From positions 2,815,001-2,879,000 of the forward strand of contig NZ_CP128988.1 in assembly GCF_030406045.1 (NCBI RefSeq): a stretch of DNA of 64,000 nt. Direction: 5' to 3'. The stretch is from Thiohalobacter sp. IOR34 (GTDB lineage: Bacteria; Pseudomonadota; Gammaproteobacteria; Thiohalobacterales; Thiohalobacteraceae). Of the stretch, positions 43,865-47,354 are shown one piece after another. Each line of letters opens with the position of its first letter. Position 1 is the first letter of the stretch. The notes under the pieces are model-generated. The model was given only the letters and a program-made list of their open reading frames with translations. It ran no database searches and had not been told where the DNA came from. A program made the translations under genes and the position numbers.

Positions 43865-43979
43865 CGAGGTACAAGGACGCCCCCCATTCTGCCCCCCGGT
43901 GAGCCCGGCCCACGGCACACGCCTTGGCTCATGGGCAGCCCGCCCCACCAGGCAAAACCCTTCCCCGACAGAGGCCTTG

Positions 43980-44101
43980 CCCGCATATTGCACGAAGGCG
44001 TGCCTTGAATGCGTAATTTTTCGATATTTATCAAGGCAGTAATTCCCTATGCGAGCAATTGTGCCCTGTTACACTTTGTGCCTATTCGCGCAATATGCGG
44101 G
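43980..44101. mobile_element. 122-bp CCCGCAT-ended element with CTTG duplication
   Basis: The ends CCCGCATATTGCAC and GCGCAATATGCGGG bound a short AT-rich interior (TTTTTCGATATTTATC), also seen inverted in 23400-23450. CTTG flanks both sides (43976-43979 and 44102-44105). Confidence 0.75.
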
Positions 44102-44193
44102 CTTGCCCCTTTGGTCCGCCGGGGGTCAAGCCCCGGCGAAAACGGCCGACAGGGCATGTGGAACCAACAGCTACAAAAAGGATGGCGCACACA

Positions 44194-44487
44194 ATGGACA
44201 AGACCTTCGACAAAGTGGAGGCGGACGATTTCTGCCGCATCACCTGTGATCTCCTGCCCCACCAGCAGATCGAGAAGGCGCTCATCCAGCTTGGCGGCAA
44301 CGGTCTGGAGGGCATGGAGTTCATGGCCCAGGCACTGAAGGCGGCCGGCTGGAAGTACGAGCGGCTGACCACCTTCACCACCCACCCGGAAGTGGCCGCC
44401 ACTGCCTTCAACCGCATCGCCCGGGCCCTGGCCGGGAGCGATACCCGGGAGGCGCTGCTCGCGGCCGTGAGCGAGGCCGATGCCTGA
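44194..44487 (+). CDS. Small protein of unknown function, coupled to HDOD gene
   Basis: The 97-residue product (KTFDKVEADDFCRITCDLLPHQQIEKALIQLGGNGLEGMEFMAQALKAAGWKYERLTTFTTHPEVAATAFNRIARALAG) is soluble and helical, with no known domain. AAGGA lies ten bases before ATG 44194; an upstream ATG at 44182 is possible. It overlaps the HDOD gene by 8 bases, so the pair is likely co-translated. Confidence 0.65.
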   Translation: MDKTFDKVEADDFCRITCDLLPHQQIEKALIQLGGNGLEGMEFMAQALKAAGWKYERLTTFTTHPEVAATAFNRIARALAGSDTREALLAAVSEADA

Positions 44488-45457
44488 AGCGGCAGGCGAT
44501 GCGCTGGCGGAGGTCCCAGCCCGGCCCCTGGAGAGTGAGCAACCGGTGAGACGCGCTGCCGACCTGGTACGCGACAACCTGGAGCTGCTGTCGCTGCCGG
44601 AGGTCTGCCTGCGCATCCAGCAGATGGCCGACGACCCCGACTGCATGCCGGCCGAGTTCGGTGAACTGGTGGCCCAGGATGCGGCCCTCAGCGCACGCCT
44701 GCTGCGCCTGGTCAACAGCGCCTTCTACGGCTTCCCGGCCCGCATCGACACCCTGAGCCGCGCCCTGCAGCTGGTCGGCATCGAGGCCCTGCGCAGCCTG
44801 GCCCTGGCCAGCTCCGCGGCCGAGGTCTTCGAACGGCTGCCCCTCGCACGGGTCACCCTGGTCGAGTTCTGGCGTCACAGCCTGTTCTGCGGCCTGCTGG
44901 CCCGGGCCCTGGCCCGCCGCGCCAGCGTCTTGCACTGCGAACGGCTGTTCATCGGCGGCCTGCTGCACGACATCGGACAGCTGCTGCTCTGCAGCCGGCT
45001 GCCGGAGACCATGGGCGCGGTGCTGGCCGAGATCGAACATGGCATGGAGGTGATCGATGCGGAACGCGAGCAGCTCGGCTTCGATCACGCCGAGCTGGGC
45101 GCCGAGCTGCTGCTGGCCTGGCAATTGCCGCTGACGCTGCGCGAGGCGGTACGCTTCCATCATCAGCCGGAACTGGCGCCGCCGCCGGGCCTGGAGGCGG
45201 CCCTGCTGCAGGTCGCCGATGCCGCCACCGGGGAACTGGAACGGCTGGAAGCGAGCTGCGCCCGTCCCCACTACGACCCCTACGACGCCTTCCTCAACCC
45301 CGAGCCCCTCAACGATGGCCGGCCCACCCCCCTGCTGGACCGCATCCGGCCCTCCTGCTGGGCGCAGGCCCGGCTCGACCGCGGCATGCTGGATGGCGCC
45401 ATCCGCGAGGCGGCACACGCCTTCGACGATACCCTGACCACCCTGTTCGGCATCTAG
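44480..45457 (+). CDS. HDOD-domain signalling protein
   Basis: The 325-residue product is one HDOD domain with short extensions: LSLPEVCLRIQQMADDP, VAQDAALSARLLRLVNSAFYG, DTLSRALQLVGIEALRSLAL, FIGGLLHDIGQLLL and AVRFHHQPE. HDOD proteins are regulators related to HD domains, often tied to c-di-GMP and stress signalling, and usually not enzymes. Its TAG stop lies in a CTAG duplication shared with a mobile element. Confidence 0.9.
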   Translation: MPEAAGDALAEVPARPLESEQPVRRAADLVRDNLELLSLPEVCLRIQQMADDPDCMPAEFGELVAQDAALSARLLRLVNSAFYGFPARIDTLSRALQLVGIEALRSLALASSAAEVFERLPLARVTLVEFWRHSLFCGLLARALARRASVLHCERLFIGGLLHDIGQLLLCSRLPETMGAVLAEIEHGMEVIDAEREQLGFDHAELGAELLLAWQLPLTLREAVRFHHQPELAPPPGLEAALLQVADAATGELERLEASCARPHYDPYDAFLNPEPLNDGRPTPLLDRIRPSCWAQARLDRGMLDGAIREAAHAFDDTLTTLFGI

Positions 45458-45582
45458 CCCGGATATCGCGGCCTGGAGGCCGCTCCTACCAGGGTGCCGC
45501 CATGCCCCGTAGGAGCGGCCTCCAGGCCGCGATCCCCGGCGGGTCCAGCCAGCCATCATCCGGGGGCTGATGCCATATACAG
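45458..45582. mobile_element. REP-pair element between two CTAG copies
   Basis: CTAG at 45454-45457 and 45583-45586 bound a segment that starts CCCGGATA, contains a REP pair (45465-45533), and ends GGGTCCAGCC...ATATACAG. Each CTAG supplies the TAG stop of one of the two convergent neighbouring genes. Confidence 0.7.
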
Positions 45583-47130
45583 CTAGCCCGTCAGCCGTCG
45601 GTCGGGGCCGTGGATCACCTGCGCGACATACTGGCGCAGCGCCGGCTGGTTGCGGGTCCTGATCACGAAGCCCGAGATCAGCCGGCAGGCGGCCGAGACA
45701 CAGCGCTTGTCCAGCGCCATCGCCTGCTCCAGCAGCTTCACTCCCTGCGGCTCCTGCCGACCGATGAAATACTTGCCGACCCCGAACAGCACCCCTGGAT
45801 CCTCCGGATTCAGCTCCAGGATTCGTTCCGCGGCCGCCCGTGCCTGCGCCTCGCTGCCATGGCGGCGGACCAGGGCGAGGTACTCCATCGCCGGGCTGCC
45901 TCGCAGCGTCCCGGCCTCGGCCTGGCTGCGCAGGCGGCGCAGCCGTTGCCGCTCGGAACAGCTGCGCTGGTGACGCAAGGCCCAGCCCTCCTGTTCACGC
46001 GCCAGCCAGCGACGTTCGAGCCGCACCGCCAGCGGCCGACCGGCATCCTCCAGCAGGGCCTCGGCGGCGCTGCGGCCCGGCGCCCGCGGCGGCCAGGGCT
46101 CGGCCAGGCCAAGGGCCGCCAGGCGTTCCCTGAGACTGGGTCCGGCCGTGGCGCTGGACGCCCGGGCGAAGGCCTCGCGTACCCAGGCCTGGGGGTTGCG
46201 GTCCTTCAGCTTGCCGGCGAAGACCACGCCGAGATTCGAATAGACGCGGAAGCCCGGCCGGGCCAGCCGCTCCGCGCTGCGGTAGATCCTCGGCCAGTAG
46301 TAGTCCTCCAGGAACCGGGCCGCGGCCACCTCCAGGCTGAGGGTAGCGGCCAGCACCTCCTCCTCCACCAGTTGCAGGGCATAGTGGTCACGGCGCAGTT
46401 CCCGGTCGCGTACCAGCGGTGCCGAGAGCCGGGCATAGAGGGGCGTGAAATGGTCGAAGAACAGCCGCAGCAGGAAACCGGAGGGACCGCCCAGACGGGC
46501 CGCCGCGACCCGGTACTGCAGCCAGGTCTGGCGCAGCTGGCAGAGCCAGGCCACCACCCCCAGGTTGTGCACCGAGATCTCGCCGATGCGTCCGGCGAGC
46601 AGGGCGCGCAGCTGCTCCGCCGAGAAACAGGCCAGCAGCGGGTAACCGATCAGCAGCACGTTGTCATGGGTCAGCGGCAGACCGTGGCGCGGGATGCGCA
46701 GCAGCTCCACCCCCAGCGATTCGTCGACATGGACCCGGTGGACGGGTGCCGCATGCAGCTGGCGCCGCACCTCCTCGATCAGGCCGAACAGCCGCGGCGC
46801 GGTGCGGCGCGATAGCCGGATGCCCTGCGGCCGGGGAAACTCCAGCCGCAGCAGGGCCAGGCTGAACAGGGCCAGCCCTGCCGCGGCCGCGGCCGGCGAC
46901 AGGGCCGCGGCCGGACCCTCGGCCAGGGCAGCGAGGGCGGCCGCCGCGAAGGCGGCCGACAGCAGCGGCGGACCCAGCAGGAAGGCGTAACCCGTCAGCG
47001 CCAGCCCCAGGGTGAGGGTCAGGTGCAGGCGCGGGTGACTCTGTGCCAGGCGCTGGAGACGGGCGAAGAGACGCTGCGCCAGACGGGCCCGGCCCCGTTC
47101 CAGACGCAGCAGCAGTCGACTGAAAGGCAT
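45583..47130 (-). CDS. M48-like membrane protein with a lost zinc site and TPR-like tail
   Basis: The 515-residue product has an amphipathic N-terminus, two to three membrane helices (about residues 35-110), and a region that aligns with M48 peptidases at FSAEQLRALLAGRIGEISVHNL. Active members have HExxH where this has GRIGE, so zinc binding and proteolysis are probably lost. Positions that fit the family elsewhere (ELRRDHYALQL) are kept. The last 100 residues look like a tetratricopeptide-type repeat (ERILELNPEDPGVLFGVGKYFIG). A scaffold role is inferred. The start MPFSRLLLR is preferred over an upstream frame extension. Confidence 0.7.
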   Translation of the reverse strand: MPFSRLLLRLERGRARLAQRLFARLQRLAQSHPRLHLTLTLGLALTGYAFLLGPPLLSAAFAAAALAALAEGPAAALSPAAAAAGLALFSLALLRLEFPRPQGIRLSRRTAPRLFGLIEEVRRQLHAAPVHRVHVDESLGVELLRIPRHGLPLTHDNVLLIGYPLLACFSAEQLRALLAGRIGEISVHNLGVVAWLCQLRQTWLQYRVAAARLGGPSGFLLRLFFDHFTPLYARLSAPLVRDRELRRDHYALQLVEEEVLAATLSLEVAAARFLEDYYWPRIYRSAERLARPGFRVYSNLGVVFAGKLKDRNPQAWVREAFARASSATAGPSLRERLAALGLAEPWPPRAPGRSAAEALLEDAGRPLAVRLERRWLAREQEGWALRHQRSCSERQRLRRLRSQAEAGTLRGSPAMEYLALVRRHGSEAQARAAAERILELNPEDPGVLFGVGKYFIGRQEPQGVKLLEQAMALDKRCVSAACRLISGFVIRTRNQPALRQYVAQVIHGPDRRLTG

Positions 47131-47354
47131 GGCAAACCTCGTTCCGGTAGAGGACCTGGAAGCCATTGTCGGCCCCCTGCCAGGGATTTTCGTGGCCTGG
47201 GTCACAGCCGCGGCCTTCCCGTGCCCTGCGGCGTCCCGGACGCGGCGCCGGTCACAACCCGGCCATGACCGGCGTCACGTCCGCCACGGTTCCCGGCCCC
47301 GCCACGAGCGGGTAGAATGGGCCGCCACCATGACCCGCCAGCCGTTCTGAATCC

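Follow-up and report, generated by a model that had tools for sequence, protein, structure and literature searches.

Two convergent genes of Thiohalobacter sp. IOR34 face each other across a short MITE whose two flanking CTAG tetramers supply their stop codons. We give roughly even credence to a history in which the MITE entered a single CTAG that served as the stop of both genes, and then duplicated it. Within the window (the whole 64-kb stretch of DNA analyzed here), the HDOD-domain gene (44480–45457, + strand) ends in the TAG at 45455–45457, inside the left CTAG (45454–45457), and the gene for an M48-like/TPR protein (45583–47205, − strand) ends in a TAG inside the right CTAG (45583–45586); the two open reading frames close as ATC TAG and GGC TAG, respectively. 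Each CTAG is both a copy of the target-site duplication and a stop. The MITE insert (45458–45582) has a REP/REPIN core formed by two inverted GTAGGAGCGGCCTCCAGGCCGCGAT palindromes, a pair that occupies 45465–45535 as the core of a hairpin. CTAG occurs 29 times in the window versus 120 expected, a fourfold depletion, and its presence flush on both sides of the insert is therefore not a matter of chance.

The first-pass annotation had located both stops in these CTAGs, in agreement with the ORF ends, and had described a 129-bp REP element, which corresponds to the 125 bp between the CTAGs plus one CTAG and is borne out by the REP/REPIN core. Its statement that the element left both proteins unchanged also holds, as the duplicated CTAG contains each stop in full and the C-termini of the two proteins have kept their old length. 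It had put the gene overlap after collapse at two bases; the actual overlap would be 4 bp, with two bases common to the stop codons only. If the insert and a CTAG copy are taken out, ...GGCATCTAGCCCGTC... remains at the junction. The HDOD domain is assigned by a Pfam match of 4e-61, and the M48-like label is weak (Peptidase_M48, E = 0.18, short of the cut-off). The latter protein (45583–47205) has no HEXXH motif within the region matched to M48, and from its sequence it may be a degenerate, non-catalytic M48 relative with a TPR tail.

The inserted copy begins with CCCGGATAT, nine bases of which match the terminal inverted repeat of its family, and closes with ATATACAG, a degenerate version of that repeat. 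It is 95–97% identical to other copies in the Thiohalobacter sp. IOR34 genome (G000), so the insertion looks recent relative to the divergence of the genes. Right ends of the same kind (CAG followed by CTAG) occur in other copies, and the direct join of CCCGGATAT to the REP core occurs in this copy alone within the genome; an internal deletion in a composite copy of the L118 type could have produced this unique join. Both the unique left end and the degenerate right terminal repeat count against the reading of a single shared CTAG. As a transcript, the element is predicted to form a long hairpin (−89.3 kcal/mol, z −8.8); we found no U-tract or intrinsic terminator in it, and no Rfam family for it.

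Comparison with related genomes indicates how the two genes came to face each other. The HDOD C-terminus here aligns to its end with those of relatives, as does the M48-like C-terminus with those of G001 and G008 (RLTG-stop here, RQTG-stop and RRAG-stop in relatives). The M48-like stop is TGA in nine of nine relatives examined and TAG only here. No empty CTAG junction was found in relatives from other genera, where the HDOD and M48-like genes are not neighbors, and a search of the contig collection with the M48-like protein returned no relative. In G007, HDOD is followed by MFP and RND efflux genes and then a pentapeptide gene, an order also seen in G001, which belongs to another genus, once its contigs C55 and C30 are joined; in G002 the pentapeptide gene directly follows HDOD. 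The M48-like gene of G001 faces DUF446, Sel1-type, and YkgJ-like genes and ComM. The Sel1 and YkgJ parts of this arrangement recur in G004 and G008, and DUF446 recurs in G008 (DUF446 was named from a search match; Sel1, YkgJ, ComM, MFP, and RND from our own reading of the sequences). In the Thiohalobacter genome, the ComM and DUF446 genes lie at 150–156 kb and are followed there by the MFP, RND, and pentapeptide genes. Because the HDOD and M48-like genes have other neighbors in relatives and the displaced neighbors lie together elsewhere, the HDOD/M48 junction is probably an inversion breakpoint; a single inversion of ∼255 kb, with breakpoints at HDOD/MFP and DUF446/M48-like, would explain the gene orders. 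The reciprocal junction, from the DUF446 gene to the efflux MFP gene, measures 87 bp and contains no recognizable element or CTAG, and G001 has 46 and 30 bp in the two equivalent spacers. As 87 bp is close to the sum of these two, little spacer would be left for the HDOD/M48 side. An origin of that junction without a spacer is favored, yet unproven, because spacer lengths vary among relatives.

A history with a single shared CTAG would begin with the lineage-specific inversion, or with later trimming, leaving the HDOD and M48-like genes spacer-less and overlapping by CTAG. A non-autonomous DNA transposon, namely a MITE with a REPIN core, would then have inserted into this CTAG and duplicated it, so that each copy would provide the TAG stop of the neighboring gene; neither protein would be altered, because YTAR targets, such as CTAG, hold TAR on both strands. 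The long RNA hairpin may protect both transcripts or help to end them. Counting against this history, the TGA stop of nine relatives implies that the M48-like stop had to become TAG before there could be a shared CTAG, and the inferred inversion breakpoint means that each CTAG could have come from an insertion of its own.

Such an origin by two insertions, which we judge somewhat unlikely, would have placed MITEs at both stops before the inversion, with recombination or end joining leaving a chimeric element, and the CTAG would never have been shared. The location of the junction at the presumed breakpoint accords with it, as does the unique left end, which has the appearance of a REPIN element fused to the left end of a MITE. 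Moreover, CTAG stands at 128 of 219 element termini (58%), so that two independent insertions would both have CTAG in about a third of cases, and MITEs lie flush at the stops of many genes, HDOD itself carrying one in another genus. Against two insertions, the reciprocal junction, about as long as both ancestral spacers together, has no recognizable element or CTAG. The HDOD element of G001 is a 254-bp MITE flanked by GTAG target duplications exactly at the stop of the HDOD orthologue (L174 1–1111, − strand, and L206 1–131), and it contains the 57-bp overlap of contigs C55 and C30. With the element removed, 46 bp separate HDOD from the next gene, versus 44 bp in the element-free G007, so the collapse of an element and one 4-mer restores ancestral spacing in this MITE family, a point in favor of the single shared CTAG. 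The G001 copy has a 95.7% identical counterpart in the same genome and matches none of the G000 elements searched. It is thus most likely a separate insertion at the same HDOD stop codon, and we judged a single ancestral insertion shared by G001 and Thiohalobacter unlikely. Apparently recent and separate, the G001 MITE is no proof of an ancestral element at HDOD.

It is unlikely, in our estimation, that the element inserted beside HDOD alone (or within a short spacer) and that the M48-like gene acquired its CTAG stop later through small deletions or substitutions. The restriction of the TAG stop to this genome, where relatives have TGA, and the degenerate right terminal repeat would fit such a course of events. 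However, the M48-like C-terminus is of ancestral length, with no visible extension or truncation, and the right CTAG lies exactly where a target duplication would fall.

That CTAG is a 4-bp YTAR target duplicated on insertion is well supported by the copies in the genome. Identical 4-mers flank 49 of 77 element pairs (CTAG/CTAG 34, TTAG/TTAG 5, CTAA/CTAA 4, TTAA/TTAA 2, CTAT/CTAT 2, CTTG/CTTG 1, and CAAG/CAAG 1). Where these 4-mers are non-palindromic they are always direct copies, never inverted ones, which identifies the flanking CTAG as a target duplication. Of the 53 pairs flanked by YTAR at both ends, 45 carry identical 4-mers versus 28 expected, a count equaled in none of 20,000 permutations. 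We regard it as highly improbable that CTAG belongs to the element's own ends rather than to the host target, despite its presence at those 128 of 219 termini, and rejected this reading on account of the direct non-palindromic duplications, other copies being flanked by direct repeats of TTAG, CTAA, TTAA, CTAT, CTTG, or CAAG. A further MITE copy in the window (43976–44105) has CTTG on each side, a non-palindromic direct duplication.

The REP-cored form is present in about 50 copies in the 2.96-Mb genome, which share two inverted REP palindromes and a common right tail, mostly ending in TGCAATATCCGGG and then CTAG. This TGCAATATCCGGG tail is also a terminus of a large family of MITEs, whose ends are inverted copies of CCCG[GC]ATATTGCACCAAGG; the end motif has 374 matches in the genome, and the elements are mostly 244–245 bp long, with others of about 110–410 bp. 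With terminal inverted repeats, target-site duplications, short length, many copies, and no transposase gene, these elements are MITEs; the REP-cored copies are also REPINs, or BIMEs, having two inverted REP palindromes and a genome that encodes a RAYT. Other genomes also contain elements that match these in their ends and in the type of target duplication. No transposase-bearing pair of family ends (CCCGGATATTGCAC ends) was found in the sequences searched, and PF13701-like transposases were rejected as the source, their ends differing from those of the family. Three Y1_Tnp genes are encoded in the genome, one of which (RAYT-like; L088, 746–3276) is ringed by arrays of GTAGGAGCGG repeats. The REP cores probably derive from this gene and its arrays.

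Elements are often found exactly on stop codons, because YTAR holds TAR on both strands. In the Thiohalobacter genome, 22 of 185 termini coincide exactly with the stop codon of a frame that looks coding, compared with 3 in two control frames, and in G001 the figures are 10 of 39 termini and 2 in control frames. By a simple gene call, six genes of the window end in CTAG, and four of the six, including HDOD and the M48-like gene, adjoin family elements; of 90 non-coding YTAR sites in the window, 6 lie at stops. This frequent position is compatible with an insertion preference or with survival at such sites. A possible second double-stop case (L170) was rejected, as both reading frames look spurious. 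The displaced pentapeptide gene (L205 1290–1758; 149.8–150.3 kb in the Thiohalobacter genome) has its TAA stop inside a CTAA that flanks a REP-cored copy, a further insertion flush with a stop.

The tetramers able to end two convergent genes are CTAA, TTAA, CTAG, and TTAG (PMC2174442), and these four are exactly YTAR. The overlap proposed here is of that four-base convergent kind, although it is reconstructed rather than observed. As YTAR is the full set of tetramers able to end two facing genes, insertion on stops is possible without change to a protein. We tentatively suggest that YTAR-duplicating elements may use stops, single or double, as safe sites that leave proteins unaltered, that the same stops may be hit recurrently across genera, and that a hairpin would be added to transcript ends. 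A duplicated target that holds a stop on either strand would give a transposon a simple route into a compact genome at no protein cost, would explain why many such elements directly abut the ends of genes, and yields a testable prediction for all YTAR-duplicating elements. The portion of the open-access literature searched contained no account of MITEs that insert at stop codons by means of their target duplication. At this locus, gene-end overlaps, inversions, and MITEs may have met at one junction.

The elements resemble bacterial MITEs (PMC10969869) in being short, gene-free, and of high copy number, with terminal inverted repeats and 4-bp target duplications, but many here contain an internal REP/REPIN palindrome pair and often lie flush with stops. 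With the REP/REPIN (BIME) elements associated with RAYT transposases (PMC2817692) they share a core of two inverted REP palindromes and a genome with Y1_Tnp genes; unlike in plain REPINs, the REP pair is enclosed in an element whose inverted ends are flanked by YTAR. IS711 has the same YTAR target consensus but is reported to duplicate TA only (PMC2266754), whereas the present element gives a four-base duplication, and the likeness to IS5-type (YTAR) elements is one of target type alone. A further repeat, which starts with CAGCCTGTCGGACTCAGG, is often found directly beside the CTAG ends of the MITEs (L054, L060, L064, L068, and others) and is apparently another mobile family that uses the same sites.
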